Source: a virus
IMG/VR virus record: IMGVR_UViG_3300021091_006422
Location: 1 to 41,125 of that record
Length of the DNA stretch: 41,125 nt
Strand: one strand, 5' to 3'
In this document: piece after piece, positions 1 through 24,266 of the stretch
Layout: every line of letters starts with the position of its first letter
Position numbering within the stretch: the stretch's first letter is position 1
Program-made: the position numbers and the translations under genes
Notes under the pieces: generated by a model
Database searches by the model: none
Told to the model about the DNA's origin: nothing
What the model saw: the letters and a program-made list of their open reading frames with translations, nothing else

Positions 1-618
1 ATGCCGTTTAAAGTAGTAGAGGAATTTGAACAGACTATAGCAAAATACGCTGGCGCCCCGTATGCTGTGGCAGTAGATAGTTGCACCAATGCTTTGTTTT
101 TATGTCTGAAATACTGTAACATTGACAATGAAACAATAACAATCCCATCAAAAACCTATATATCTGTACCTTGCTCCATCATCCATGCTGGAGGCAAAGT
201 TAAATTTAAGAATATTAAATGGAAGGGGTGTTACCAGCTCGCCCCTCTGCCAATATATGACAGTGCAAAAAGATTTAAAAAGAACATGTATATAAAAGAT
301 ACATTATATTGTCTTTCCTTTCACGCCAAGAAGCATATACCAATAGGCAAAGGTGGTATGATACTAACAGATGATAAGCATGCATACGAATGGTTGAAGC
401 TAGCCCGGTACAATGGTCGCTCACCTATAGATCTAAAAAAAGATACTTTCAAGATGGTAGGTTGGAATTTTTACATGTCGCCAAATGATGCAGCAAGAGG
501 TCTATGGCTGTTCAATAGTATTAAAGAGAATAACAATAAGGATCTGTTAGAGGATTACCCTGATCTATCCAGATATAAGTTTGAAAAAAGCGGCGCACCG
601 TTAAAGTATGAGTCTTAA
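1..618 (+). CDS. Miniature DegT/DnrJ/EryC1/StrS-family PLP aminotransferase
   Basis: Homologue of sugar aminotransferases that make amino-sugars on nucleotide-sugars. Visible landmarks are the N-terminal cofactor region with a SCTNAL stretch (27-32), a YDSAKRF segment (86-92) at the family's Asp-Ala-Ala position, SFHAKKH (106-112) with K111 as the expected Schiff-base lysine, GKGG (116-119), and GWNFYMSPNDAARGL (154-168), which matches the family's GxNxRM...AA.GL motif. At 205 residues it is little over half the usual ~370. The middle of the large domain is compressed and the C-terminal small domain is missing. The ATG is the first base of the window, so an upstream start cannot be excluded. 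It heads a glycan gene cluster and overlaps the next gene by 11 bases. Family assignment is good; activity of so short a form is uncertain. Confidence 0.8.
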   Translation: MPFKVVEEFEQTIAKYAGAPYAVAVDSCTNALFLCLKYCNIDNETITIPSKTYISVPCSIIHAGGKVKFKNIKWKGCYQLAPLPIYDSAKRFKKNMYIKDTLYCLSFHAKKHIPIGKGGMILTDDKHAYEWLKLARYNGRSPIDLKKDTFKMVGWNFYMSPNDAARGLWLFNSIKENNNKDLLEDYPDLSRYKFEKSGAPLKYES

Positions 619-1459
619 TAGTTTAATCTCTGCTATTGTCGAGAAAGGTATTGTGTTGAGAATACTTTTTAACAAAAATAAAAAACGACACTTTAGGTAT
701 GTTACTACTGGTAGATGGGCACACTTATATGGCGGGGTACAAAGTGAAGATCCATATGTAGATGCGCTGTTACACGCGTCAACTACTCTTGAGGACAATA
801 TCGATACTATTGAATATGTATTCATGCCAGCAGGCTTTAATCTTCGATGGTTTCTTACTCAATCTAATGACATTACTGAGGTGAAAGAACTTTTTGAAAG
901 CACAAAAAATAAATTTACTGACATACGCAACGACTTTAACAGCTACATGCATAGTCATATTCATGAATTGCAGCAATATAATTTTAAAACACTAAAGGAT
1001 GAATATTTTATACGCAACTATCCCGAGAATACTACAGCGAAAAATGCAAAACAGTTGTTAGACATTATAAAACAAGACATAATTAACAAATATTTTATTA
1101 TCGGCAGCAATACAGATGAAATATATACGCTACCAGCATGCACACGCATAGGACTCGCATTTGAGCATTTTAAATCTAATGATGTTGCATTAATTAAATG
1201 CTGCAAACGCAAATGGTTTGATGTTATTAAGCTAGAGACACATAATTTAATAGGTAGATTGAATTATGAAATTAAGCTTATAAAGAAAAATAAAAAAATT
1301 AAAAACAAAGATAAAGCTGTCAAGCAATTAAAACTTTACATTAAAATGCTTCAAGGTGTTAACAGACATTGCTTGAAAAACTGCGACTCTATAGAAGACA
1401 TATTATCTTTTTGGCCTAGCTTAATGCAACCCAAACCAATATTTGTCTATGACCGTTAA
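608..1459 (+). CDS. Hypothetical protein in glycan cluster
   Basis: A 283-residue protein I do not recognise. It starts inside the end of the aminotransferase gene and ends inside the start of the GT32-like gene, so it is translationally coupled on both sides. The sequence looks soluble and mainly helical, with no signal peptide or membrane segment. The C-terminal third is strongly basic, with Lys-rich stretches around 225-250. A Cys-Cys pair occurs in DVALIKCCKRKW. Its position between sugar-modifying enzymes suggests a role in the same pathway, but this is context only. Confidence 0.7.
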   Translation: MSLNSLISAIVEKGIVLRILFNKNKKRHFRYVTTGRWAHLYGGVQSEDPYVDALLHASTTLEDNIDTIEYVFMPAGFNLRWFLTQSNDITEVKELFESTKNKFTDIRNDFNSYMHSHIHELQQYNFKTLKDEYFIRNYPENTTAKNAKQLLDIIKQDIINKYFIIGSNTDEIYTLPACTRIGLAFEHFKSNDVALIKCCKRKWFDVIKLETHNLIGRLNYEIKLIKKNKKIKNKDKAVKQLKLYIKMLQGVNRHCLKNCDSIEDILSFWPSLMQPKPIFVYDR

Positions 1460-2189
1460 TTTTTTATGGATTGGGGCGCAACTTGGCCTGATGGAGCAGT
1501 TAACTCTTACCTCTTTTCTTCATAATAATCATAAACCAGTACTTTGGGTATACAATAAAAAATGCAAAGGCATACCCAAGGGTGTAACAGTTAATGATGC
1601 AGGAGACATCGTACATCCTTCAAAAGTCTTTGCCTATACTGGTAACGGCGACTGTAGGAAAGGTAGTTATGGAGGATTTTCAGATATTTTTAGATATCAT
1701 TTGTTGTTTCACACTGGCGAATGGTATTGCGACATGGATGTAACATGTCTTAAGAATTTTTCTACTATAAAACAAGACTATCTTTTTAGGCCTCATCCAA
1801 AAACTAACGTTGTGGGAAATATATTAAAAACACCTAAAGGGTGTGGTCTTATGAAGGCTTGTATAGATATTACAGAGGCAGAAGTTACTTCAGGAAATGA
1901 TAGATGGATCAAACCACTAGAAATTTTAAACAATCAGGTTGAAGCTTTTAACCTAACAAAATATATATGCCCTTCCACGTGGTTTGGTCTTGATGACAGT
2001 AAAAATCTGCAAGAACTCTTGGCAATAAACTACTTTGTACAAGATGTTAAACTTCCAAAATATGCCATTCACTGGTGTAATGAAGCAATAACAACAGGCC
2101 AGTGGAATAAATCCATACAAAGAGATTGGAATGTACCTATTCCTTCTACTCTCTATTATAATCTTCTAAAAAATCATCGGTTAATATGA
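1449..2189 (+). CDS. GT32-like glycosyltransferase (DXD motif)
   Basis: Resembles the glycosyltransferase sugar-binding region containing DXD (GT32; Och1/TcdA-like capsular transferases), which moves a sugar from a nucleotide-sugar using a divalent metal. The core is FSDIFRYHLLFHTGEWYCDMD; the DMD motif is about residues 95-97 from the chosen start, preceded by the conserved Asp and Arg of SDIFRY. The N-terminal NFLWIG matches the usual I-P-K-x-I-H-x-I/W-x-G entry of the fold. At about 246 residues it is a normal compact length. I chose ATG 1449; an in-frame TTG at 1443 is two codons upstream. It overlaps the preceding gene by 11 bases and the next by 4 (ATGA). Likely decorates a phage or host glycan. 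Confidence 0.8.
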   Translation: MTVNFLWIGAQLGLMEQLTLTSFLHNNHKPVLWVYNKKCKGIPKGVTVNDAGDIVHPSKVFAYTGNGDCRKGSYGGFSDIFRYHLLFHTGEWYCDMDVTCLKNFSTIKQDYLFRPHPKTNVVGNILKTPKGCGLMKACIDITEAEVTSGNDRWIKPLEILNNQVEAFNLTKYICPSTWFGLDDSKNLQELLAINYFVQDVKLPKYAIHWCNEAITTGQWNKSIQRDWNVPIPSTLYYNLLKNHRLI

Positions 2190-3064
2190 AAATTGCTATT
2201 ACCACAGTGCTGGATGACAAATATATTCCTGGGTTTTTAATAACCTTTAATAGTATGTTGCGCTGTAGTGAAGGTATGGACTATGACCTAATCATACTAG
2301 AGTGGGGCGATCTTAGAAATGAAAATAAACAATTGATTAAGAGCATTTACCCTAACACTATTTTTCGTGCTGTAGATAAAAAATCCTATGCTAGCCATGA
2401 GTACGATACAACATGGCGTACCTGGACTTATAATTGTAATTATAGATTTGACATTTTTACATTTAAAGAATATGACAAAGTTATATTCTTTGATTGCGAC
2501 TTCATCTTTAAAATTAGCATGAAAGAAATAGCAAATATAGACGTAGAGTTTGGAGCTTGTCCCGCGGCCGTCAGACAAGTGCATCAAATAAAAAATGAGG
2601 TTGGATTTGAAGGCGGGCTACTAGTTATAAGCAAAAAATATTTAAATGATAAGATTAAAAAAGATTTGTTAAAAATAGCAGACTCTAAGCCGCCTTATGA
2701 TGAAACCATAAAAACTGATAAGTGGACCAGTGATGAACCCATCTTAAATACATATTTTCTAGATAAACTCACATGGCTGCCCGAGAAATATAATCTTGGT
2801 ATTGATAAACTCACCCGCGAGCATTTTAAATCGCCTCACAACTTTCAATTTGTGGGTCACAACAAGCCCTGGTATGGAACAGAGTTAAACGAGCAGTTTG
2901 ACAAGTTTATTTTTGACTCTTGGACTAAAACAAATGGAGCCTACATTGTACCGCTACTACAAAAACAGCTTTTAAATCTTTATAATGAAGAAGTCCAAGC
3001 TTTAAAAGAAAAACGGCTTTATATCAGTAATTATACCGGTTTAATTTCAGCTGTTAGATACTAA
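2186..3064 (+). CDS. GT8-like glycosyltransferase
   Basis: Glycogenin/LgtC-type (GT8) retaining glycosyltransferase. It opens with MKIAITTVLDDKYIPGF, the usual first beta strand, and carries the metal-binding DXD in FFDCDFIF (D103, D105). EGGLLVISKKY fits the conserved acceptor-side strand. A C-terminal FVGHNKPWYG (about 227-236) matches the HxxGxxKPW signature that closes the active site. The 292-residue length is typical of the family. Its ATG overlaps the stop of the GT32-like gene as ATGA. Two transferases in a row, plus a deacetylase and a dehydrogenase-like gene, indicate assembly or remodelling of a specific oligosaccharide. Confidence 0.85.
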   Translation: MKIAITTVLDDKYIPGFLITFNSMLRCSEGMDYDLIILEWGDLRNENKQLIKSIYPNTIFRAVDKKSYASHEYDTTWRTWTYNCNYRFDIFTFKEYDKVIFFDCDFIFKISMKEIANIDVEFGACPAAVRQVHQIKNEVGFEGGLLVISKKYLNDKIKKDLLKIADSKPPYDETIKTDKWTSDEPILNTYFLDKLTWLPEKYNLGIDKLTREHFKSPHNFQFVGHNKPWYGTELNEQFDKFIFDSWTKTNGAYIVPLLQKQLLNLYNEEVQALKEKRLYISNYTGLISAVRY

Positions 3065-3073
3065 AATCATAAT

Positions 3074-3724
3074 ATGTCCAATGTTTGTGTAATTGTGCCG
3101 CATGCAGATGATGAGACCTTGGGGTTTGGTGGGGCTATTCAATATCATATAGCTCAAAATGATACAGTGTCAGTTATTATTTGCAGAAAACCTCATGATG
3201 AAAGAACACAACAACAGATTAATGATTCCAAAGTCGCTTTAAATATTTTAGGTGTAAAAAATGTATTCTTTTTGAATGTGACTGAGGTGGAAATATCTAA
3301 TACCCCTCTAAAATTGTTTAGAGATTTAGAGACACAATTACAGTATATTAGACCTGCTGTAATTTATACTACTTTCTGGGGAGATAACCACCAGGACCAT
3401 AAAATTTTGTTTGATTGTGTAGCTCGAGCGGCAAGAATACACGGGCCACTCTGTGTAAAGAGACTGTTAGTTGGAGAGATACCTAGCTCTACAGACCAAT
3501 CACCTAAAACCACTAATAACATGTTTACACCCAATACCTACATACGCATTACTTATGAACAGCTTCACAATAAAATTACGGCAATGGAGGCATATACAAC
3601 AGAATCAAGGCAATCCCCACACCCACGGTCAGCTGATTATTTAGCTTGCTTAGCAAGAATGCGCGGCATTGAATGTGGGTCAAAATTTGCTGAGGCTTTT
3701 ATGCTTGTAAGAGGTATTTTATGA
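3074..3724 (+). CDS. PIG-L/LmbE-family N-deacetylase
   Basis: Zinc-dependent deacetylase of the PIG-L (LmbE/MshB/BshB) family, which removes N-acetyl groups from GlcNAc-containing conjugates. The first signature is VPHADDETLGFGG (8-20), equivalent to the family AHPDDExLG..G. The second is WGDNHQDH (102-109), equivalent to HxDH, supplying the distal zinc histidine. A C-terminal basic MRGIECGSKFAEAF segment is also family-like. The length, 216 residues, is normal. It lies 9 bases after the GT8-like gene, and its last codon overlaps the next start as ATGA. In this cluster it could deacetylate an N-acetylated sugar made or transferred by its neighbours. Confidence 0.9.
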   Translation: MSNVCVIVPHADDETLGFGGAIQYHIAQNDTVSVIICRKPHDERTQQQINDSKVALNILGVKNVFFLNVTEVEISNTPLKLFRDLETQLQYIRPAVIYTTFWGDNHQDHKILFDCVARAARIHGPLCVKRLLVGEIPSSTDQSPKTTNNMFTPNTYIRITYEQLHNKITAMEAYTTESRQSPHPRSADYLACLARMRGIECGSKFAEAFMLVRGIL

Positions 3725-4437
3725 AAGCCGGTATCATAGGTGCAGGTATTGTGGGTAAAGCTCTAGCAAAATGCTACAAAAAGAACAAAATTAAAGTTAT
3801 TATTAAGGATAAAGATAAGGTTATAATGTCTAGTATAAATTTTTTAAATATTTGCATACCTTACACTAAAAAATTTAATTCAATAGTTATTTCTTATATA
3901 AAAAAAATAAAACCAAAGTATGTAATTATTCATTCAACAGTACCTTGTGGCACAGCTGATTTTATTAGACGTAAAATAAGGTGTGAGGTTATCAGTAGTC
4001 CAGTCCGGGGCTCACACGATAATTTATATGAGAGTCTCAAGATATTTTTAAAATACGTAGGATGTAACAACACACAAGCTGCTGTAGCGGCAGTTAAGCA
4101 TTTCAGGGAAATAGGAATTGATTGTAAAATTTTAAACTCCAACAAAGCTGCAGAACTTTTAAAGCTGTTATGCACAACCTATTATGGTATTTGTATTAAA
4201 TGGCATGACCATATGTTCAAAATGTGTCAAAAAGCTGGCATAAATTTTGGCGATATTACACACTGGAATTTGTCATATAATGCAGGTTATAGTAAACTTA
4301 ATTGCAAACACGTTGTGCGTCCTATCCTCACACCTCCGAAAGGTAAAATTGGTGGTACTTGCATAATCCCTAATGCAAAACTACTAAAACTGTTTACAGA
4401 TGATAAATTTATAGATATCTTAATAAATAATATGTGA
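3721..4437 (+). CDS. UDP-glucose/GDP-mannose dehydrogenase-like protein, truncated
   Basis: Rossmann-fold oxidoreductase related to nucleotide-sugar 6-dehydrogenases. GIIGAGIVGKAL (4-15) is the NAD-binding GxGxxG motif. IIHSTVPCGTAD (69-80) matches the family STVPPGT loop. NKAAELLKLLCTTYYG (141-156) matches the AELxK helix, and GGTCIIPN (211-218) matches the GGxCxPxD loop with the catalytic-type C214. At 238 residues it is little more than half the usual ~430 and lacks the C-terminal UDP-binding domain. The central helix that normally carries N-E-x-A is divergent. It may be a reduced dehydrogenase or a repurposed reductase. ATGA overlap upstream and GTGA overlap downstream show tight coupling. 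Confidence 0.75.
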   Translation: MKAGIIGAGIVGKALAKCYKKNKIKVIIKDKDKVIMSSINFLNICIPYTKKFNSIVISYIKKIKPKYVIIHSTVPCGTADFIRRKIRCEVISSPVRGSHDNLYESLKIFLKYVGCNNTQAAVAAVKHFREIGIDCKILNSNKAAELLKLLCTTYYGICIKWHDHMFKMCQKAGINFGDITHWNLSYNAGYSKLNCKHVVRPILTPPKGKIGGTCIIPNAKLLKLFTDDKFIDILINNM

Positions 4438-7810: not shown

Positions 7811-8905
7811 TTAACCAGAAACGTATTCCCAAGATGTGCCGCCGCTATTTATTCTGTAAACCAAGTTATTATTTCGCGTGGGGTTAGCTATGCCAGCATC
7901 TTGTACTAACCTTGTTATGGTTCTGCTAATCTGTCTTACGCTCTGATATACTGCTGGTTGCCAGTTTTGCACAGTCGAAGCTATATGAGCTCTTAAACCA
8001 GGGGGAAAACTCTGCACTGGCACAAGAGTATTTAACAGAGCCACAACACTATCAGACCCTGAACCAGTTATGCTCAGGCCACGCACATCAAGCGAAAAAT
8101 ATAGATCTTGATATCTTAAGATATCAGCTATAGGAATATCTGTTGGGGTGCCAGCTGTGGTTAATCTGCCTTTAAGCGTTGCACCAGGCATGGGCGCTAA
8201 TTTTGGATTAGAAATACCGCTGTCTTTAACTTGCAAAACACCTGCAGGTGTTTTATTAATAGTTACATCGTCTACTGGAACTACCTGATCTATTGTTATG
8301 TCTTGTGGGGTTCCAGCAATGGACAGAACACCTTTAACTGTATTAGGTGGCATCACCGCCAGTTTGTTATTAGTTACACCTGCATTAGTAATGCCCAATG
8401 AATTTCCGGTGAAAGAAAGCTCGGGTTGTGTGTCTGCTATTTGCAGTATTTGATTTGAACTGGTTCTAATTAACCCTCTACCAACTGTTGCCTCAGTAAG
8501 ATAACGTGCATTTAAAGAATTCTCCTTCACAGAGAGATCTGTACCAATGCGCTGAATAGTTAAATTGTCAACAGTAATATTAATACCAACAGGCCTGTAA
8601 TTATCTACTCTTGCAAAATCCGTCCCAGTTAAAGCATATAAAATATTAGAAATTTTATCAAACACCAAGTCATTTGGAGCTGGTGCATTTGTTGCAGGTA
8701 CATTAGAATTAATTGTAGAGAAGTTTTGAAACCCTAAAAACTTTATACCCACAGGAACTCCACCGTACGTTACACCATCACCAATGTATAGCCGGCTTGA
8801 GTTGGTAGCATATCCAGGTTCACTTTGAAGCAGAAGAACACCCTTTCTTTCTTCTTCTGTGCCTCTTCTAATAATAATTCGCGTAATTGGTTCTGTATTA
8901 GGCAT
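7811..8905 (-). CDS. Tail fibre-like virion protein
   Basis: A 364-residue structural protein. The N-terminus holds the phage fibre signature RRGTEEERKGVLLLQSEPGY (14-33), then LYIGDGVTYGG, as in tail fibres and the N-terminal domain of major tropism determinants. The middle (about 100-260) has repeated SxxPKLAPMPxxTLKG-type and 'VDDVTINKTPAGVLQVKDSGI' units (split across 205-230), typical of repetitive fibre shafts. The C-terminus (320-364) is helical then ends NSGGTSWEYVSG, resembling fibre tips. Upstream on the minus strand is an exact TATAAATA box (8946-8953). Likely part of a fibre or baseplate adhesin. Confidence 0.75.
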   Translation of the reverse strand: MPNTEPITRIIIRRGTEEERKGVLLLQSEPGYATNSSRLYIGDGVTYGGVPVGIKFLGFQNFSTINSNVPATNAPAPNDLVFDKISNILYALTGTDFARVDNYRPVGINITVDNLTIQRIGTDLSVKENSLNARYLTEATVGRGLIRTSSNQILQIADTQPELSFTGNSLGITNAGVTNNKLAVMPPNTVKGVLSIAGTPQDITIDQVVPVDDVTINKTPAGVLQVKDSGISNPKLAPMPGATLKGRLTTAGTPTDIPIADILRYQDLYFSLDVRGLSITGSGSDSVVALLNTLVPVQSFPPGLRAHIASTVQNWQPAVYQSVRQISRTITRLVQDAGIANPTRNNNLVYRINSGGTSWEYVSG

Positions 8906-15453: not shown

Positions 15454-17831
15454 GGTCCTTTTTTGCTGTTATTTTGGGAGCTAGCAATATTTCGACCTGC
15501 ATCATTATTCTTTTTAGCGGAATTGCGTAAATCAGTGTTATCCTTAACAAGAGTCAACGGCAGATTTCTGAAATGGTGGCTATGCGGATAGATGTAGAAG
15601 CAATTATCACTCGCATATAAATTTTTATCTGGTAAACAGCTATATATTGCTTCACCATTTCCTCTGAAACCGATCACCATGGATGTTTCATCGTTAGCAA
15701 TTCCATATACTTTAGTAAGTTCGGTTTCTTGTATTTCAACAGGTGCAGTAATATGATTAATGGATAATTCTCCTTCAATATGCGCTCCGCCCGCGACAAT
15801 TAGATTACGAGAGACTCCCAAGCTGCTGTCTATCATAACTTGTGCCATTTGACGCTGTTTTAGGTAAATTACATCTGCAGTGAGTGTAAATCTTTTACCA
15901 GCATCAATATTAACTTCGTTTGTACTTCCTAAATTTAATTGCTCACCCGCGACATTAACTATTGTACCACCAATCTGCACAGGGCCAAATGTTTTCATAC
16001 TAATACCACCTGACCCCACTTGCAAGGTGTATCTATTACAGGCATTTAAGGTATAATTACCACCAGGCAAATCATCCACATGAACATACTCCACCAAAGG
16101 AGAAGGTTGTTGATTTTCATACACTCCTGTTTCATCTACCAGTACTTGTGCATTATACATTTTACCTGTAGGGTCTACACGTATGCTACCAAAATCGTTC
16201 ATAACTAAGCCAATAGTTTCAATTTTATGTTTAGTAACATCAATTATCTCATGGCCGCCTAACCCAAGACCAGCTTCACTTTTGGCTAGTAACGTGGCTT
16301 TATTAGCAATAAGAGAACCAAGTTGTTGTTTTATTGGATCTGGTCCCCAGTTACCACCCATGCTGCTAGAACTTTTGCCAGTGCCGTTGCATGCTGGGCA
16401 TTTCTTAGTTTGCGGAAATTGTAATTCTCGAGGCTTACCAGGTGGAAAAGCCCCCTTTGGTTGCACAAAGCTATAATTGGAGACTTGTGATGTTAGCCCG
16501 TATCCTTTTCTGGATAGATAAGGACGGGGCCTGCCCCCTGGGGGTCGCTGACCTAATGGGATATCTACATTAACCGTTTCAAAGAAACCAGTATTAGGAC
16601 TAGCACCGGCAAAATAATTCCCTATGTAAACATTTGACATTTCTACTTTTTTAAATGGATCGTTTTTTAAAGTAGATATTTTCTTATTACCTCTACAAAC
16701 CGGACATACGCCTTGAGATCCTTTTTTGGATTGCTGAGCGCTATTAAAAAACCCTTTGCTATCTGTTCTTTGAGTTTCAAATCTTTGTTTGACGTCTGCA
16801 ATACTCTGCGCTGCATCTTTCCATTCTTGTATTGCCCCGGCGTCGAGACTACCGACTTTTCTGTAATAGTCTCCACGAATAATACTATCTCTATCACCGT
16901 CAACATAAAAATTATCCGCGCCTCTTACTGTTTCGAATTTGTCCCCCAGAATTAAATGCTGCTCATTAGCTGTGGCGAGATAAATTGATGCTTGATTAGT
17001 TAATTGTATAGAACTTCCACTGTAATGTGTTAATTTTAATGCTTCTTTATTGTCTGTATTAGTAAACTCTAAAGTACCACCTTTTTGATTTACAAGATAT
17101 TTGTTTCTATAAGTTTCTACATTATGATCAGTGTCACCTTGAGATTTACTTTTGTTTTCATATGAATCTGGATAATCAGATGTTTCATATACCCCTTGCC
17201 ATGCAGCAGCATCATGACTAGAAGCAAAATAAACAGGATACATTGGATTACCATCCATAAAAAATACCCAAAGATGGGAACCTACCGGAGGTACAGAAAA
17301 CGAACCTTTTGCTTTGTTGCTGTAAGATGCAGGCTTGTAACTCTGGCCATATATATTACTCTTGTTTGTACCAGAAGATCCAGGAGAGACAAATGCGTCT
17401 TTTAAAGCAAAATCTGATTTTTCCAAAATATTGGCAGGTTTTTCTCCAGTACCATCTTTATTTTGACTATACTTGGTGGGTTGAAAATCTTTTATTGGTG
17501 TTGAAGATTTGAGTTCATTACTGTCGCTTATTGTTGCACTTTGATTATAACTATTGTAACGACCAGCGGAAACTTCCCCTGCAAGAGGTGAAGCACACTC
17601 CGCCCATGGTAATATGTCTTTCACTTCTTCAACAATATCTGTTAACGGGCTCTCTACATTGGATCCTAAAAATTTAAACTTTTTATCTTTGGATGATTCA
17701 GTCCAGTTATTATATACAGTAGGTGCCAAGTGGGGTACAAAAACTTTGACTCTGCCTTTTTTAAGAGGATCGTTATTAGCTACACAGATACCTAAGTAGT
17801 TGCCGTAGAGTTTATTATCAGGCTGCGCCAT
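15450..17831 (-). CDS. Baseplate central spike protein (gp5/VgrG-like) with paired zinc-knuckle motifs
   Basis: A 793-residue spike. Residues 1-215 contain the gp5-type OB-fold: YGNYLGICVANNDPLKKGRV at 9-28, then WAECASPLAG and SFSVPPVGSHLWVFFMDGNP, which are hallmarks of the N-terminal domain that links the spike to gp27. Residues 240-340 and 500-690 have the short repetitive beta pattern of a spike helix (for example GSSIQLTNQASIYL and GGISMKTFGPVQIGGTIVNV). No lysozyme domain is seen, unlike T4 gp5. Two DnaJ-like CxxCxG motifs lie at C376/C379 and C478/C481. The C-terminal HSHHF (about 755) is a possible metal site. It overlaps the upstream 3D-domain gene by 14 bases. Confidence 0.85.
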   Translation of the reverse strand: MAQPDNKLYGNYLGICVANNDPLKKGRVKVFVPHLAPTVYNNWTESSKDKKFKFLGSNVESPLTDIVEEVKDILPWAECASPLAGEVSAGRYNSYNQSATISDSNELKSSTPIKDFQPTKYSQNKDGTGEKPANILEKSDFALKDAFVSPGSSGTNKSNIYGQSYKPASYSNKAKGSFSVPPVGSHLWVFFMDGNPMYPVYFASSHDAAAWQGVYETSDYPDSYENKSKSQGDTDHNVETYRNKYLVNQKGGTLEFTNTDNKEALKLTHYSGSSIQLTNQASIYLATANEQHLILGDKFETVRGADNFYVDGDRDSIIRGDYYRKVGSLDAGAIQEWKDAAQSIADVKQRFETQRTDSKGFFNSAQQSKKGSQGVCPVCRGNKKISTLKNDPFKKVEMSNVYIGNYFAGASPNTGFFETVNVDIPLGQRPPGGRPRPYLSRKGYGLTSQVSNYSFVQPKGAFPPGKPRELQFPQTKKCPACNGTGKSSSSMGGNWGPDPIKQQLGSLIANKATLLAKSEAGLGLGGHEIIDVTKHKIETIGLVMNDFGSIRVDPTGKMYNAQVLVDETGVYENQQPSPLVEYVHVDDLPGGNYTLNACNRYTLQVGSGGISMKTFGPVQIGGTIVNVAGEQLNLGSTNEVNIDAGKRFTLTADVIYLKQRQMAQVMIDSSLGVSRNLIVAGGAHIEGELSINHITAPVEIQETELTKVYGIANDETSMVIGFRGNGEAIYSCLPDKNLYASDNCFYIYPHSHHFRNLPLTLVKDNTDLRNSAKKNNDAGRNIASSQNNSKKGP

Positions 17832-18912
17832 AAGTTGGTGGAGAATATCTCGCGTATTTATATTGACTCTTTGGAGGATAAACTGTTACTACCACTTCTT
17901 GTGTGGGTATAGACTTGGTAAATGCCAAGGCTGTTTCTTTTTTTTCGAAATATATATCTACTATAGGCAAACGACCACCACTAGCACGGCGCGCCTTTAC
18001 TGCTCCTCCAGTATCTACAGCAAGCCTTGTACCAGCATATGGTATATCTATTCTACTGAGATAAGGAATAATCACTGGATCTACAGCAGCACTGATACCC
18101 TCCGCTAGTATTCTTCCAGTAGAGCTTAGTTTTTGTGCTGTATAATAATCTGTCCCAGATCCTTTTGACCAATATACGGTCAGTCTTACCGCTAACTTAT
18201 ACCCATTTTCGTTTCCCCCGCTAAACGCCGGGGAACTTAATTGCTGGAAAGGCAATTGACCGGAATTAGAAAACCCGGGGTTGTTAACCTGGTCAAAAGC
18301 CATTTGCTGTGCCACATTAGATATATTGTTTTTTGCACTGGCCACAGTTTCATTAATTTTGTTTGTTAAATTAGAAGGGTTAGCCAAATCCCTAATTCCT
18401 TTTGGTGTTAACTGGGATACTGATGAGAAAGCATTCTGCATTGCTGATTGTATATTGCCTATCTGACTACCTTGTGCTGCATTCGTAAGAGCACCTACCA
18501 TTTGATCTGCGGATTTGATAGAGAATTTATTACTCATCTGAGATAATAAAGAATCTAATTGATCTAATGCCCCCGTAGCATCAAAACTACCTATATTGCC
18601 TATGGTTTTACCAGCAACTGCATTAATAAGACCTGTTGCTTGCTGCTGTACTTGAGGTGCAATTTGATTTAATCCTTGAGTCATTTTGTTAGTAAAATTA
18701 GATGGAGATAGCAGTTGCTGTGCACCGTTGCTGGCAGCATTAATAAAATTGTTAGGTAACAATGCCGATGCCTGTTGTCCAAATTGGTCAAATGATGGCA
18801 CGCTTGTCATTTGTTGCAATTCTGCTTGCGTTATGCCACTAAGCTTATTTTGAAGCTCTTGAGCTACAGTTGTTAAATCTGCGGCATTATAATTCACTAT
18901 ATTATTTAACAA
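17818..18912 (-). CDS. Tail/baseplate protein with C-terminal 3D peptidoglycan-lytic domain
   Basis: A 364-residue protein with two parts. Residues 1-235 are low-complexity, Gln/Asn/Ser/Ala-rich and helical, with imperfect repeats such as LLSPSNFTNKM and LANPSNLTNKI, likely a virion scaffold. Residues 238-345 are a 3D domain with D278 (AVDPVIIPY), D300 (AVDTGGAV) and D319 (IVDIYF), homologous to the protein at 5540-6106. The start is TTG at 18912, preceded by AAAGAGA, a plausible Shine-Dalgarno. Its end overlaps the spike gene. As the spike lacks a lysozyme domain, this protein probably supplies virion-associated wall-degrading activity during DNA entry (inference). Confidence 0.8.
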   Translation of the reverse strand: MLNNIVNYNAADLTTVAQELQNKLSGITQAELQQMTSVPSFDQFGQQASALLPNNFINAASNGAQQLLSPSNFTNKMTQGLNQIAPQVQQQATGLINAVAGKTIGNIGSFDATGALDQLDSLLSQMSNKFSIKSADQMVGALTNAAQGSQIGNIQSAMQNAFSSVSQLTPKGIRDLANPSNLTNKINETVASAKNNISNVAQQMAFDQVNNPGFSNSGQLPFQQLSSPAFSGGNENGYKLAVRLTVYWSKGSGTDYYTAQKLSSTGRILAEGISAAVDPVIIPYLSRIDIPYAGTRLAVDTGGAVKARRASGGRLPIVDIYFEKKETALAFTKSIPTQEVVVTVYPPKSQYKYARYSPPTYGAA

Positions 18913-18935
18913 TCTCTTTGATTTCTCGAACTAGG

Positions 18936-18945
18936 TATTATAATA
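18936..18945 (+). promoter_or_regulatory. Palindromic bidirectional -10 element
   Basis: TATTATAATA is a perfect palindrome giving a TATAAT on both strands. On the + strand TATAAT (18939-18944) ends 8 bases before the ATG at 18952, with a poor -35 (TTTGAT, 15-base spacing). On the - strand it is 26 bases upstream of the TTG at 18912. Confidence 0.45.
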
Positions 18946-18951
18946 GAATTA

Positions 18952-19758
18952 ATGAAAGTGTCTCATGAATCTCCCATATCAATCATAGATTATTCACAGA
19001 CATACAATGATTTTGATTATGCATTAGTACATTTGTTTGAACAATATCCAGCATACTATCAATTCTTTAAATCTGCCAGATCCGTATATGATAGAGAAGT
19101 ACTTCTCGACAACAGCATATTTGAACTAGGCAAAGCTTTTGATTCAGACAAATTCTATGCAGCTGCTTTGGATTTGCAGCCTAACATGTTTATTGTGCCT
19201 GATGTTTTAGAAGATGGCCATGGAACTATTGAAAGCTTCAAACAATTTGAACACAAAAAGAACGATTTAAAAGATACATTTTTAACCAAGGCTATTGGTG
19301 CTGTACAAGGTAAAAACTGGCAAGAACTAACAGAATGCTACAAATTTATGGTAGATCATGCTGACATGATTGCCATTAGTTTTGACTTTAGCTACTATCA
19401 AACTACTGGCCAAGGCTGGCACCATCTGGAGCGTTGGTGCTCAGGTCGTCAGCGTTTTATTCAGGACCTAATAAATAATGGCATATGGAGGTGGGACAAA
19501 CCTCATCATTTACTGGGCTGCTCATTAGCAAAAGAGTTTAGATATTATGTCGATAGAAACATTCACAATATTGTGTCTTGTGATACTAGCAATCCAGTTG
19601 TTGCCGCTATTCATGGATTAAAGTATGATGCAGATTATGGGCTACAAACTAAACCCACAACTAAATTAGCTGATTTAATTACTCATGAGCTCACACCTGA
19701 ACAATTGAGTATTCTTAATTATAATGTGAGTATGTTTAAAAAGATTTTACGCCGCTAA
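18952..19758 (+). CDS. TGT-superfamily transglycosylase (DpdA-like)
   Basis: A 268-residue TIM-barrel protein related to tRNA-guanine transglycosylases, which swap guanine for a 7-deazaguanine base. Corresponding motifs are LLDNSIFELG (51-60) for DSGGFQ with D53, IVPDVLED (81-88), GAVQGKNW (116-123) for the GIVQGG substrate loop, HHLLGCSLAKEF (185-196) for GGLAVGE, and SCDTSNPV (209-216) for SVDCVLPT, with D211 as probable nucleophile. The C-terminal CxCxxC zinc site of true TGTs is absent, as I recall for phage DpdA enzymes that act on DNA. QueF and a formyltransferase in the same operon support a DNA-modifying role. The substrate (DNA or tRNA) remains unproven. Confidence 0.75.
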   Translation: MKVSHESPISIIDYSQTYNDFDYALVHLFEQYPAYYQFFKSARSVYDREVLLDNSIFELGKAFDSDKFYAAALDLQPNMFIVPDVLEDGHGTIESFKQFEHKKNDLKDTFLTKAIGAVQGKNWQELTECYKFMVDHADMIAISFDFSYYQTTGQGWHHLERWCSGRQRFIQDLINNGIWRWDKPHHLLGCSLAKEFRYYVDRNIHNIVSCDTSNPVVAAIHGLKYDADYGLQTKPTTKLADLITHELTPEQLSILNYNVSMFKKILRR

Positions 19759-21341
19759 TGGTAAAAAAAGTAATAGTTGTTGGTGGCGGTAATGCAGGAT
19801 ATTCTGTTGCAGTAGCAATAAAAAGGATAAACCCTGATATAGACGTACACTTATTTTATTCAAAAGAAGTACCCACCCTGGGCGTAGGTGAGAGCACAGT
19901 ACCACAAGTTGCAACTTTTTACACAGCGTTCCTAGGCTATAATCAAACAGAGTTCATGCGAAAAACCGACACAGTTTTTAAATTTGCAAATAAATTAGAA
20001 AATTTTGTACACAATAAAGGCGAGTATACATATTTTGGGTTCTCATATAATTTACAAGGAAAAGATTTGTTAAACGGGTTTTTTCATCAATACAACAATA
20101 ACAGCTTTAGAAGTGTTGTGAATAATAGAGACCGTTTTACTGATTATTTTATAGCCTTGTATAATCAAAATTGTTTAAAGTTTAATGATGTTAACCCCTA
20201 CATAAATGAACATTTTGGATTCTTGGAGCAAAACAAATGCCCGTTTTATAACGATCATTACTTAGCCAATAGCTGTTGGAGTTGGGCATATCATACAGAC
20301 GCAAACAAAATAACTGATGTTTTAAAGCAAACAGCAAAAGACATACATATTGTTGAGCATGAATGTAATGTGACACCAATTATTGAGAATAATATTTGCA
20401 AAGGTATATCTGACGGTACAACAACACATACAGCTGATCTATACGTAGATGCAAGCGGGTTTTCACGCGTACTTTTTAGCAAAATGGTGAATGAATGGCA
20501 AGACTACCCCCTTATACCTGTAAGCAAAGCCTGGCTTGTTAATAGTAATTATGTGAACAAAGAAATCCAAATGACCGCGTACACCAGGTCTATTGCCATG
20601 AATGCTGGTTGGAGATTTGAAATTGCGCTTTACAGCAGAATAGGAAATGGTTATGTTTTTAGCCCCAAGCATATAAGTGATGAAGATGCATACAAAGAGC
20701 TAGAACAACAAATACCCTCCTCAACTTGGGTGCAACAGCCTAGATTAATTTCATGGCAACCAGGAAGGTATAAAAAAGCTGCAGTCAATAACTTAATATC
20801 TGCAGGCATAGCCACTGGGTTTTTTGAGCCATTATTATCTAATGCACTATACCTCTCGGTGTCTTCAGCAAAAAAAATAGCTCTACTTCTTCAAAAAAAT
20901 AACAAAGGTACAAACATGGCTGAGTTAATGGACGACTATAATCAATCCACCGATATACTATATGCAAGCATATATGATTTCTTGGCTGCTACATATAAAT
21001 TTACTTCTCGCGTCGACACCCCTTTCTGGCGAGAGCAACACGAAGCAGGTAAGAGCTTAAACCTTGCAGAAAAAATTAAAACCCAATATTACAGCGAGTA
21101 CAATAATATAGAAAATAATATTAACGGGTATAGTATATTTCCTGACTTCATGTGGATTAATTTGGCGGCCCATTTCAATCAAAACATAAACTGGCCGCCA
21201 GAATACACAATAGATAAAAACAAGTTGAATTTAGCGGAAATGACGTTTAAATATATTAGGGAGAAAAGCGAACAATCCGCTCTTTTAAGCCCCACATTTT
21301 ATGACTGGCACAGAAAACACATTTATGACAACCAACCGTAG
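19758..21341 (+). CDS. Flavin-dependent (tryptophan-type) halogenase
   Basis: FAD-dependent halogenase, which forms HOX from FADH2, O2 and halide. The FAD motif is VVGGGNAGYSVA (7-18) and the family motif GVGESTVP is at 42-49. K75 (TVFKFANK) aligns with catalytic K79 of RebH and E357 (GFFEPLLS) with RebH E346; RVDTPFWRE also matches. The WxWxIP motif that limits monooxygenase activity is altered to WRFEIA (285-290). At 527 residues it is full length. The start overlaps the previous stop by one base (TAATG). The substrate is unknown; I recall a characterised cyanophage halogenase (VirX1) with a preference for iodide. The neighbours point to a nucleobase or its precursor. Confidence 0.88.
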   Translation: MVKKVIVVGGGNAGYSVAVAIKRINPDIDVHLFYSKEVPTLGVGESTVPQVATFYTAFLGYNQTEFMRKTDTVFKFANKLENFVHNKGEYTYFGFSYNLQGKDLLNGFFHQYNNNSFRSVVNNRDRFTDYFIALYNQNCLKFNDVNPYINEHFGFLEQNKCPFYNDHYLANSCWSWAYHTDANKITDVLKQTAKDIHIVEHECNVTPIIENNICKGISDGTTTHTADLYVDASGFSRVLFSKMVNEWQDYPLIPVSKAWLVNSNYVNKEIQMTAYTRSIAMNAGWRFEIALYSRIGNGYVFSPKHISDEDAYKELEQQIPSSTWVQQPRLISWQPGRYKKAAVNNLISAGIATGFFEPLLSNALYLSVSSAKKIALLLQKNNKGTNMAELMDDYNQSTDILYASIYDFLAATYKFTSRVDTPFWREQHEAGKSLNLAEKIKTQYYSEYNNIENNINGYSIFPDFMWINLAAHFNQNINWPPEYTIDKNKLNLAEMTFKYIREKSEQSALLSPTFYDWHRKHIYDNQP

Positions 21342-21909
21342 ACCTTGGGTGGCATTTTTTTCCCAAACTGGGACAGAAATTTATAATTTAATAAATAGTT
21401 TAAGTATTTTTCCGGACTGTATTGTTACAAACCAGCAGCAAACAGAAAAAATTAATAAAAACCTTATTGACACCGTAAAGTTTAGGGAACATAAACTAAA
21501 TTTAAAAAATTTATGGGAGTTTATACCTAAAAATCCTTCTCTAAGAGACTATAACGGCATTCTTAAGAATTTTGATAACCCTATCATAACATTACACGGT
21601 TTTTTAAGGATAGTTCCAAAAAAAATATGCGAGAAATATGAAATTTATAACTTACACCCAGGTTTAATTACAAAATATCCTGAGCTTAAAGGGTTTAACC
21701 CCCAGGAAAGAGCATACATACAAGGATATTCTACTGCTGGGTGTGTTATTCATAAAGTTGTACCTGAAGTTGATGAAGGTCCAATTGTTAAGTCTGGTCA
21801 AATTTTAATCGAAGGGCTGCCACTGCCTGATATCTATAAAAAATTACACGATCTTGCATTTTTACTCTGGAAAAAGTTTATAACAGAGGATAAAATACTC
21901 GAAAAGTGA
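21325..21909 (+). CDS. PurN-like formyltransferase (candidate DpdN)
   Basis: GART-fold enzyme that transfers a formyl group from 10-formyl-tetrahydrofolate to an amine. Counting from this ATG, the catalytic triad is visible as N109 and H111 in YNLHPGLITKYP and D150 in PEVDEGPI. LHGFLRIVP precedes it as the conserved LAGFMRIL strand, and AGCVIHKV matches TGCTVHxV. I chose ATG 21325; an in-frame ATG at 21301 would add 8 residues and overlap the halogenase more deeply. The enzyme is 194 residues, a bare catalytic domain. DpdN, a predicted dPreQ1 formyltransferase in phages, is the best functional match because QueF and a DpdA-like enzyme are adjacent. Confidence 0.8.
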   Translation: MTTNRRPWVAFFSQTGTEIYNLINSLSIFPDCIVTNQQQTEKINKNLIDTVKFREHKLNLKNLWEFIPKNPSLRDYNGILKNFDNPIITLHGFLRIVPKKICEKYEIYNLHPGLITKYPELKGFNPQERAYIQGYSTAGCVIHKVVPEVDEGPIVKSGQILIEGLPLPDIYKKLHDLAFLLWKKFITEDKILEK

Positions 21910-22253
21910 ATCCAGATGATGTAATTAAGACGGTTGAAGGTACTTACCCTGAAACATGTGAGGAGTTTAAGAAAATACAGCGTGAGCAATATGAAGTTTT
22001 CTGCAAAAAGCAGTTTGATTATGGGCCACATAATATTAGTCTGGGATCTGATTTGCATAAAAAAGAAGATATACAAGCATCCATATCTGCAATAGTTGTC
22101 AGACTTAATGACAAGATACAACGGCTTATTAATTTGGTATTGAGAAAGAAAACATTTGAAACGGCCAACGAACCCATCTTTGACGCTTTTAGCGACACAG
22201 CAGTTTACTGCATTATTGCAGAAATTGTAAAGAGAAAAAAATGGTGTAAATGA
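21906..22253 (+). CDS. Nmad1/DUF1599-like nucleotide-modification-associated protein
   Basis: A 115-residue helical protein. KKQFDYGPHNISLG (34-47), a central DIQASISAIVVRLNDKIQRL helix and a C-terminal EPIFDAFSDTAVYCIIAEIV match the DUF1599 / nucleotide modification associated domain 1 pattern (K-x-x-DYG, R-x-x-DKxxRL, D-x-x-x-D-x-x-x-Y). The family is found near nucleotide-modification genes in phages; its biochemical role is unknown to me. The GTG start overlaps the formyltransferase stop as GTGA, and the stop overlaps the next small gene as ATGA. Confidence 0.65.
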   Translation: MNPDDVIKTVEGTYPETCEEFKKIQREQYEVFCKKQFDYGPHNISLGSDLHKKEDIQASISAIVVRLNDKIQRLINLVLRKKTFETANEPIFDAFSDTAVYCIIAEIVKRKKWCK

Positions 22254-22399
22254 AACAACCCCACATCAGGCACACCTGGGTTGACGACGATAATCACCCT
22301 TTAAAAGGCTATCCCGTAGACGAGCTAGAGTTTATCGATGAAAACTGGTGGCAAATTATTGTTAGAAAAATTAAAGAATTGGTTGGCATACTTAAATAG
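22250..22399 (+). CDS. Small 49-residue protein
   Basis: A short open frame whose ATG overlaps the preceding stop (ATGA) and which fills the gap to the kinase gene. It encodes MKQPHIRHTWVDDDNHPLKG, then an acidic, Trp-rich region (ENWWQIIVRKI) and an amphipathic helical end. The coupling and codon pattern support translation. A strong promoter for the kinase lies over its final codons. No family recognised. Confidence 0.55.
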   Translation: MKQPHIRHTWVDDDNHPLKGYPVDELEFIDENWWQIIVRKIKELVGILK

Positions 22400-22411
22400 T
22401 TCATCTATAAT
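22383..22411 (+). promoter_or_regulatory. Near-consensus sigma70 promoter, leaderless start
   Basis: TTGGCA (22383-22388), an ideal 17-base spacer and TATAAT (22406-22411). The GTG at 22418 is exactly 7 bases past the -10 box. This is the best promoter in the window and would drive the kinase and queF separately from the upstream genes. Confidence 0.7.
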
Positions 22412-22417
22412 AAAATT

Positions 22418-23008
22418 GTGAACGTTACTTTTACTGGTCCGCAGTGCTCTGGTAAAACTACTTTGCTTAAGCAAATGAAGCAAACAAGTGGTATCATGGA
22501 TCAATTTTTTTATATTGATGAGGTTACAAGACTAGTTAAAAGAGAGTTTAATGTACCTATTAACGAAGAAGGTGCAAATGATGTAACACAATTGTTAATC
22601 ATAAACAAAGAACTAGAGAATTTATTTAAATATAACTATGAATTATGGTCAGGATACAGAGGTAGTGTTCATGATAGGTGCTTGCTTGATGGTTTAGTAT
22701 TTACAGAATTTTTTTATGAGAAAAAATTAGTTAGTCAACAGGTATGGTCGCAGGCTTTAAGTTATTGGAATAGATTCCATATCAAATATGATATTATTTT
22801 TTATCCTGATCCTCATGAAATAAAATTGGAAGATGATGGAGAGAGAAGCACTAATAACGAATTTAGAAATGCTATCATAGACAAGTATGAAAATTATTAT
22901 ATAAACCAATTTCAATGGAAAGAAAGGGTACATATTTTAAAAGGAACAGTTGAAGAACGCATGGAACAGATTAAAATAGTACTTAATGAACACCACACTA
23001 GACAATAG
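22418..23008 (+). CDS. P-loop nucleoside/nucleotide kinase (NadR/AAA_28-like)
   Basis: A 196-residue P-loop kinase. FTGPQCSGKTTLLKQM (5-20) is the Walker A motif. FYIDEVTRLVKREF fits the NadR-like E-x-x-R helix. SVHDRCLLDGLVF holds the DR motif that binds the phosphoryl-acceptor nucleoside. The lid-like EDDGERSTNNEFR segment follows a DIIFYPDP strand. It matches NadR-type/AAA_28 ATPases or small nucleotide kinases, not classical thymidylate kinase. In this operon it could phosphorylate a modified (7-deaza) nucleoside or a normal dNMP (inference). The GTG start coincides with the predicted transcription start. Confidence 0.7.
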   Translation: MNVTFTGPQCSGKTTLLKQMKQTSGIMDQFFYIDEVTRLVKREFNVPINEEGANDVTQLLIINKELENLFKYNYELWSGYRGSVHDRCLLDGLVFTEFFYEKKLVSQQVWSQALSYWNRFHIKYDIIFYPDPHEIKLEDDGERSTNNEFRNAIIDKYENYYINQFQWKERVHILKGTVEERMEQIKIVLNEHHTRQ

Positions 23009-23900
23009 TAATATTTCTGTCCACTTAGGCAAAGTTACCGGTTATAAATCCACTTATGACCCATCGTTGCTTGTCCGCGAACCAAGGCAAAATAACAGAA
23101 AGCACCTGGGTATAGCAGACGATAAGCTACCATTTACAGGCTATGATATTTGGAATGCATATGAAGTATCATGTTTAACAAATGATGGTATGCCCATTGC
23201 AGCAATTGCAAAGATTGTTTACCCGTGTTCAAGCAGATACATTGTAGAATCCAAATCCATTAAATTATATATGAATTCGTTTAACATGGAGGTTATTAAG
23301 GGTAATGCTATTGCGGTGCTAATGGAATTGCAAAATACTATTGCCAGGGATCTTTCTAAATTATTAGAAACCGATGTGAAGGTATATGTACGATCAACAA
23401 CGGCTGTTAGCGATGATTTGTTTTATCCACCAGTCTTTTCAAACAAAAATTATCCTACACTAGAAAATACTATTGATGTTACTATGATTCAAGCCACAGA
23501 TTATTCTGAGACACCTGAGTTGCTTTCTGGAGTTGAGAGTACCGTTTCAACAACTCAGCGATTCCACTCTGCATTATTAAAGTCTAATTGCCGTGTAACT
23601 AGTCAGCCAGACTGGGGAGATGTATACATACACTACAAGGGTAAATGGGCCATAACACCAACTTCATTACTCAAATACATTGTATCTTTTCGCGATGAAT
23701 GTCATTTTCATGAAGAAATATGTGAGACCATCTATAAGAGGTTACAAAATAAATTTCATCCTGAAGAATTAATAGTGAGCTGCTTGTATGTGCGTCGTGG
23801 AGGCATTGATATTAACCCTACCAGAGCCAGCAAGTATGAACTGCTTGACAGAGCATTAATAGACGAGTACAAATATTTTACTAAAACAGTAAGACAATAA
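22986..23900 (+). CDS. queF: NADPH-dependent 7-cyano-7-deazaguanine reductase
   Basis: Bimodular long-form QueF, which reduces the preQ0 nitrile to the preQ1 amine using two NADPH. WNAYEVSCL (56-64) starts the N-terminal half. The QueF motif ESKSIKLYMNSFN is at 88-100. The thioimide-forming C202 is in LLKSNCRVTSQPDWG, with D209 seven residues on, and the substrate-binding H242-E243 pair is in FHEE. RRGGIDINP (270-278) is also diagnostic. All reductase residues are kept, so this looks like true QueF and not the QueF-L amidotransferase-like variant. At 304 residues it matches E. coli QueF (~280). It overlaps the kinase gene by 23 bases. Confidence 0.95.
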   Translation: MNTTLDNSNISVHLGKVTGYKSTYDPSLLVREPRQNNRKHLGIADDKLPFTGYDIWNAYEVSCLTNDGMPIAAIAKIVYPCSSRYIVESKSIKLYMNSFNMEVIKGNAIAVLMELQNTIARDLSKLLETDVKVYVRSTTAVSDDLFYPPVFSNKNYPTLENTIDVTMIQATDYSETPELLSGVESTVSTTQRFHSALLKSNCRVTSQPDWGDVYIHYKGKWAITPTSLLKYIVSFRDECHFHEEICETIYKRLQNKFHPEELIVSCLYVRRGGIDINPTRASKYELLDRALIDEYKYFTKTVRQ

Positions 23901-24266
23901 TTATTGCAGCTTGAGCAGATAGCATGTTTGGTTTAACACACCCAACATCTCATCTCTAATATTTAAAAGATCAGTATCTAATTGGGGGCTTAATTTACAG
24001 GATAATTCTGATAGAAATCCTTTGTATGTTTCAATTGCCGTGCATGCGTCCAGCTGCTTATTATCAAATAGCTGCACAGTAATGTTGCCATCAGAAAAAC
24101 ATGCTTCTTTGCGGCCTAGTGCAGTCTCAACAAATGTATCAATAAGACCATCAAGGGTTTCGTAAGCACGCCCCAAAGCTTTATGAGCTGAATAACTTTT
24201 TGTTTGCCAATGAAAAATTCTCAATTGATTTTGCATTTGCAACAAGTCTCTAACTACATCGTGCAT
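23901..24266 (-). CDS. Dps/ferritin-like small helical protein (DUF5856-like)
   Basis: A 121-residue helical protein beginning MHDVVRDLLQMQNQLRIFHW. HWQTKSYSAHKALGRAYETL (19-38) resembles the H-W-x-x-x-x-x-x-x-H pattern of Dps/ferritin-like four-helix bundles. I recall phage proteins of DUF5856 with the same HWQT-KS motif. The second ferritin metal motif is not clear, so iron storage is unproven. Its stop abuts the queF stop (TAATTA palindrome). A TATAAATA box sits just before the ATG. Confidence 0.65.
   Translation of the reverse strand: MHDVVRDLLQMQNQLRIFHWQTKSYSAHKALGRAYETLDGLIDTFVETALGRKEACFSDGNITVQLFDNKQLDACTAIETYKGFLSELSCKLSPQLDTDLLNIRDEMLGVLNQTCYLLKLQ

Follow-up and report, generated by a model that had tools for sequence, protein, structure and literature searches.

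The 41,125-base IMG/VR record IMGVR_UViG_3300021091_006422, analysed here over its whole length (the window), carries seven plus-strand genes at positions 18952-23900 that almost certainly constitute a 7-deazaguanine DNA-modification operon of a bacterial virus. The core of this operon is a system of an already known type, and the new element is a gene for a halogenase-family flavoenzyme. We propose, with the case for and the case against about evenly matched, that this flavoenzyme is a lineage-specific tailoring enzyme of the same pathway. The proposal builds on protein families, fold, motifs, gene order and co-transfer, from which substrates, the order of steps and products were inferred.

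The transglycosylase and the core operon

The 268-amino-acid product of the first gene had no match over the cut-off in the Pfam search and fell into phrog_19058 (E 7e-56), with 45% identity to gp056 of Campylobacter phage CP220 (a Firehammervirus; annotated hypothetical) and 43% to a Flavobacterium immuto phage protein annotated as DNA guanine transglycosylase (DpdA). An AlphaFold (AF2) model built from 20 window and IMG/VR sequences (pLDDT 88.5, pTM 0.87) had the TIM barrel of the tRNA-guanine transglycosylase (TGT) type. The first 43 Foldseek rows were TGT, with the DNA preQ0 insertase DpdA (7ui4) lower (E 1.1e-4), and in VIA comparisons the two scored about equally (TGT: Z 17.9, root-mean-square deviation (rmsd) 3.2 over 233 residues; 7ui4: Z 17.6, rmsd 3.1 over 231 residues). 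Invariant in the 20 aligned sequences were D53 of LDNS, D84 of PDxLED, Q119 of VQG, G189 of LLGC and D211 of SCDTSNP; these motifs sit at predicted strand ends and follow one another as the active-site residues of TGT do, and this order and the strand positions, rather than a superposition, were used to match them to TGT D102, D156, Q203, G230 and D280.

Such a top match to TGT would also suit a tRNA-type transglycosylase in an operon that raises queuosine in tRNA and does not modify DNA. We hold this to be very improbable, since by alignment the protein lacks a C-terminal CxCxxC zinc site, a Cellulophaga phage phiST protein (TMq 0.86) ranks first among the named full-length viral fold matches, and the closest sequence relatives include Firehammerviruses, in whose DNA guanosine is reported to be replaced by a deazaguanosine (PMC8713573). 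By sequence and model, the protein is very probably a DpdA-type transglycosylase exchanging bases in DNA, in keeping with the first-pass annotation of the window, which had called it a zinc-site-less TGT/DpdA-like enzyme. In an earlier survey the phages with no recognised DpdA included those of Campylobacter (PMC6884629), and CP220 gp056 (L004:10001-10777), standing beside a similar kinase, is a good candidate for the Firehammervirus transglycosylase. At another locus (L027:5917-6821) two overlapping tblastn segments point to a frameshift in dpdA near residue 190-218, either real or due to an assembly error.

The core of dpdA, formyltransferase, kinase and queF recurs on 28 IMG/VR contigs. One of them, IMGVR_UViG_3300010334_006426 (L006, L012 and G001), also carries the halogenase gene, 66% identical to the window's; in the core contigs without it, the formyltransferase stands directly after dpdA, almost touching. 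Because the same order recurs on related contigs without the halogenase gene, the gene set lies far beyond chance. The formyltransferase exceeds the cut-off for Formyl_trans_N (TIGR00639 stays under its own) and keeps the PurN catalytic Asn, His and Asp in all aligned relatives (N.HPG, NLHPG in the window, and the D of VDEG); from its gene context, dPreQ1 is a plausible substrate. QueF matches QueF_N (1e-35) and QueF (2e-21) over their cut-offs and TIGR03138 (9e-82) at 274.7 bits, 18.8 under the equivalog cut-off of 293.45. Its catalytic Cys and Asp are kept, as are SNCRVTSQPDWGD, across the window clade, and HFHEE. These results bear out the families that had been assigned (FAD halogenase, PurN-like formyltransferase, P-loop kinase and complete QueF, all with Pfam matches over the cut-off), and the DpdA-type fold, complete QueF and PurN-type Asn, His and Asp uphold the reading of the operon as one for 7-deazaguanine DNA modification. 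Two loci, L026:10326-11186 and L023:2251-3177, have a very different QueF at the same operon position (35% identity to that of the window, where the other IMG/VR loci have 57-81%), with L026 on a long branch.

The genes for preQ0 had been expected from the host or elsewhere in the genome. We located folE, queD and queC on longer related records, with queE matched weakly in two of these records, one of them from the other halogenase carrier, and since related records carry these genes the preQ0 of the window phage is probably phage-made. An IMPDH/GMP-reductase-family gene is usually on the same record as the core (L007:9372-10343 and 10 other related records), often within the dpdA operon between formyltransferase and p115, and may reduce guanine supply.

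A phage pathway of 7-deazaguanine DNA modification that involves DpdA3, dPreQ1 and DpdN was reportedly described by Cui et al. in Nucleic Acids Research (NAR) in 2023 (51:9214), with DpdA3 said to belong to phages with complete G replacement; we take DpdA3 to be the name in that later paper for the subfamily of CP220/phiST-like transglycosylases. Those systems reportedly share with the window the DpdA-type transglycosylase, QueF and PurN-like formyltransferase, and as far as we know no halogenase-family enzyme has been described in their DpdA3/DpdN operons. Flavobacterium phage vB_FspM_immuto (MW353176) has the order queD, queE, folE, dpdA, small open reading frame (ORF), formyltransferase, kinase, queF, and the immuto phages show 43-48% identity to the window in dpdA, formyltransferase and queF; unlike the window, they have neither a halogenase nor a p115 match at the dpdA locus. 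A kinase similar to the window's lies near dpdA in the Flavobacterium phages and adjoins it in the Campylobacter phages. In CP220 (gp056-gp057), unlike the window, neither a formyltransferase nor a QueF match stands beside the transglycosylase, and the Campylobacter Firehammervirus base is reported to be of the dADG type, not preQ1 (PMC6884629).

In the pathway that we propose, FolE, QueD, QueE and QueC, with genes in another part of the phage genome, would supply preQ0, QueF would convert it to preQ1, the DpdA3-like transglycosylase would exchange DNA guanine for the deazaguanine, and the PurN-like enzyme would formylate the aminomethyl group to give N-formyl-preQ1 DNA. Formyl-preQ1 is the base that we favour, with some reserve, as the product of the core. 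The flavoenzyme would oxidise the electron-rich pyrrole ring, of which C8 is the free carbon, in the free base or in DNA, to yield a halogenated or hydroxylated base. That it acts on the deazaguanine base of the core in one way or another is a view towards which we lean slightly.

The active site of the halogenase-family enzyme

The flavoenzyme matched Trp_halogenase (PF04820, 2.3e-75) and RebH (1.8e-41), and the proteins of known structure nearest to it in sequence are halogenases without exception. With the tryptophan halogenases RebH and PrnA it shares family, length and the position of the catalytic lysine, its Lys75 aligning with RebH K79 (chain residue 99); the GxGxxG site for flavin adenine dinucleotide (FAD) is present as GGGNAG. 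Unlike RebH and PrnA, it has Leu360 in place of the catalytic Glu (E357 and E346, respectively), WRFEIA in place of WxWxIP, and no match to the tryptophan-binding motifs Trp1, Trp2 and Trp4 (PMC8269204), with STVPQV, HQYNN and YYSEYNN against ATIPSL, HLFGN and YYETFDFEF, and no YYxxF(E/D)xEF(R/K)NFW. The Leu and WRFEIA occur in both carriers, as does an Ala for the final G of Fx.Px.Sx.G. Free tryptophan is an unlikely substrate because the Glu is lost and the Trp motifs are unmatched; an electron-rich pyrrole such as 7-deazaguanine is, we infer, a plausible one.

The halogenases found in other phages differ from this enzyme. VirX1 (6qgm) and the PrnA-like halogenases of cyanophages and pelagiphages share with it PF04820, the FAD site and the catalytic lysine at 23-29% identity; unlike it, they keep the Glu in EPLE, nearly all keep WxWx[IV]P, and their annotated neighbours are 2-oxoglutarate oxygenases and sugar or virion genes, not dpdA.

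Halogenases that act on electron-rich phenols lack the catalytic Glu (PMC8407142), and the window's FFEPLL fits FX[DE]PX[EFL], the motif reported for active halogenases (PMC8407142). WxWxIP has been proposed to shield the substrate site and so prevent hydroxylation (PMC10696468, PMC8407142), and it is missing from some proven halogenases, such as Bmp5 (PMC8407142). The active-site changes together with the fit to FX[DE]PX[EFL] are therefore compatible with hydroxylation as well as with the halogenation of an electron-rich ring. Halogenation of the deazaguanine base is at best a tentative reading, on the doubtful side, and hydroxylation or another oxidation of that base, also rather unlikely taken singly, is nearly as likely. 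In this alternative the core operon is the same, and the flavoenzyme hydroxylates the deazaguanine, or acts on it as another kind of monooxygenase, and introduces no halogen. The lost shield motif, the Leu in place of Glu and the Ala in Fx.Px.Sx.G would suit such an enzyme, as would a weaker hidden Markov model similarity to LodB, a flavoprotein maturase; pulling the other way are the lysine, which in RebH handles hypohalous acid, the fitting FX[DE]PX[EFL], the Bmp5 precedent and the halogenases that make up its nearest structural relatives. Since Leu replaces Glu, WxWxIP is broken and the Trp motifs are lost, hydroxylation or other oxidation is a serious alternative.

Between the two carriers, divergence was 0.23 at nonsynonymous (pN) and 0.80 at synonymous sites (pS), the latter being saturated, for which reason no dN/dS is given. 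The identical residue changes at 66% identity and these values indicate a protein under selection, not one in decay. An AF2 model of the enzyme from only the two sequences reached pLDDT 34 and was not used.

Distribution and history of the halogenase gene

In both carriers the halogenase gene lies between dpdA and the formyltransferase. In the operon tree the window groups with L007 (support 0.986), and L006 falls into a separate clade. L006 is a mosaic, in which the kinase shares 95% and queF 91% identity with L019, and dpdA (79% identical to the window's), p115 (89%) and, weakly, the formyltransferase group with the window clade. Because these adjacent parts of L006 side with different relatives, recombination seems to have moved everything from dpdA to p115, with the halogenase gene, as one block. 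The halogenase identity between the carriers lies inside the range of the operon genes (59-89%).

An Asn-synthetase/class II glutamine amidotransferase-like gene is inserted between dpdA and the halogenase gene in L006 (L006:2662-3939), with a 33-bp, 91% direct repeat on either side that duplicates the junction of dpdA stop and halogenase start. From this scar it follows that direct adjacency of the two genes, as in the window, is the older state. The inserted gene was considered as a pathway member and dropped, its homologues standing elsewhere in other relatives and its insertion bearing the repeat scar.

The flavoenzyme might alternatively have landed in an unchanged core operon by chance and act on an unrelated small molecule or surface component, which we judge improbable though not negligible. 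The patchy presence of its gene would fit, as would the insertion at the same junction in L006, a sign that the site tolerates cargo, and the halogenases that other phages bear in sugar and amino-acid clusters (PMC7824862). Such a chance arrival accords less well with the stop/start overlap with dpdA, seen in the window and in the L006 repeat scar, with a divergence like that of the operon genes, with movement in one block with dpdA and p115, or with the loss of the Trp-binding motifs. That the halogenase gene belongs to the operon, as had been suggested, is upheld by position, recombination and the duplication scar, and the further, undescribed mark suggested for it is a putative one; the changed active site had gone unnoticed, and the rarity of the gene among related contigs could not be seen from the sequence alone.

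Several points weigh against a tailoring role on the deazaguanine. The gene is dispensable, being present only in the window and one of the 28 contigs; its co-transfer with dpdA could be the hitch-hiking of neighbours; the active site differs from those of all ten other phage halogenases compared; and we know of no characterised halogenase that acts on a nucleobase or nucleic acid. A 7-deazaguanine in phage DNA that an enzyme has halogenated (to an 8-chloro or 8-bromo form, for instance, and perhaps on N-formyl-preQ1) stays a speculative outcome, unlikely as matters stand.

Should the deazaguanine be the flavoenzyme's substrate, the phage DNA would acquire either a halogen or a hydroxyl on the ring, neither of which is, to our knowledge, found on a natural DNA base of this type. 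In a halogenated 7-deazaguanine, natural DNA would have its first halogenated base that is genetically encoded, and its maker would be the first of the halogenases to work on a nucleobase or nucleic acid. Action on deazaguanine would widen the range of DNA marks that defeat restriction enzymes, provide a nucleobase halogenase or hydroxylase usable for DNA labelling, and explain a halogenase subgroup in which leucine replaces the catalytic glutamate. Near relatives with the same operon and without the halogenase gene offer a natural comparison.

Further carriers were sought by several routes. The pattern EPLLSNALYL recovered only the already known relative from viral contigs, and a related pattern had five matches in genome contigs, none with a halogenase homologue by blastp. 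A sample of 395 genomes of the Mucilaginibacter phylum gave weak partial matches only, with no cellular source found. An alignment-driven scan for distant halogenases added one locus, L036, with canonical motifs. No paper joining a halogenase and 7-deazaguanine DNA was found in our literature search.

Operon layout and neighbouring genes

All seven plus-strand ORFs of the first-pass annotation were recovered at their positions (Table 1), with ends that overlap or almost touch. Minus-strand genes border the operon on both sides, at 18912 (a divergent gene, 17818-18912) and 23901, and with the touching ORFs this makes it, by anatomy, one transcription unit. The upstream gap is the sole space for its putative promoter.

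Table 1. Position and basis of assignment of the operon genes and the upstream gap in the window.
Feature	Position	Strand	Basis
Upstream gap, 40 bases	18912..18951		TATTATAATAG precedes the dpdA ATG; read directly from the sequence
dpdA-like DNA guanine transglycosylase, 268 amino acids, DpdA3-like by closest relatives	18952..19758	+	phrog_19058 7e-56
Halogenase-family FAD enzyme, 527 amino acids	19758..21341	+	PF04820; RebH match
PurN-like formyltransferase, DpdN-like candidate	21301..21909	+	PF00551 6.9e-14; alignment
p115, conserved 115-amino-acid protein	21906..22253	+	phrog_1485 2e-13
p49, 49-amino-acid ORF	22250..22399	+	conserved in some relatives
P-loop kinase, AAA_28, thymidylate-kinase-like	22418..23008	+	PF13521 1.3e-13; phrog_2107 2e-27
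QueF, preQ0 nitrile reductase, bimodular, complete	22986..23900	+	PF14819 and PF14489 over cut-off

Overlaps of 1-41 bases had been listed. The one-base overlap of dpdA stop and halogenase start, in the junction TAATG, stands, and the 41-base one is doubtful: the ATG at 21325 is the probable start of the formyltransferase, because the alignment with relatives that lack the halogenase gene begins only at about residue 9-14, and with that start its overlap with the halogenase gene is nearer 17 bases.

The likeness of p115 to Nmad1/DUF1599 was found again in a weak form, below the Pfam cut-off (13.8 bits against 25, E 0.078; best among 11 relatives E 0.0025, also under the cut-off), so that this label for p115, which is 69-93% identical in its relatives, is a weak one. 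Matches to p49 (41-73%) occur in L006, L007, L016, L017 and L020.

The record is probably a piece of a larger phage genome, related IMG/VR records being up to 229,717 bases long. A DNA-level comparison of the window with phage records gave no match, and its ribonucleotide reductase is about 51% identical to cyanophage and pelagiphage proteins. Directly after the operon lies a DUF5856 protein (23901-24266, minus strand), conserved at 71-81% in L006, L007 and L009. Positions 1-4437 hold, in a row, an aminotransferase fragment, two glycosyltransferases, a PIG-L deacetylase and a UDP-sugar dehydrogenase-like protein, probably for sugar chemistry, and at 7811-8905 (minus strand) stands a protein with a Major tropism determinant N-terminal domain (1e-7), like a known target of diversity-generating retroelements.

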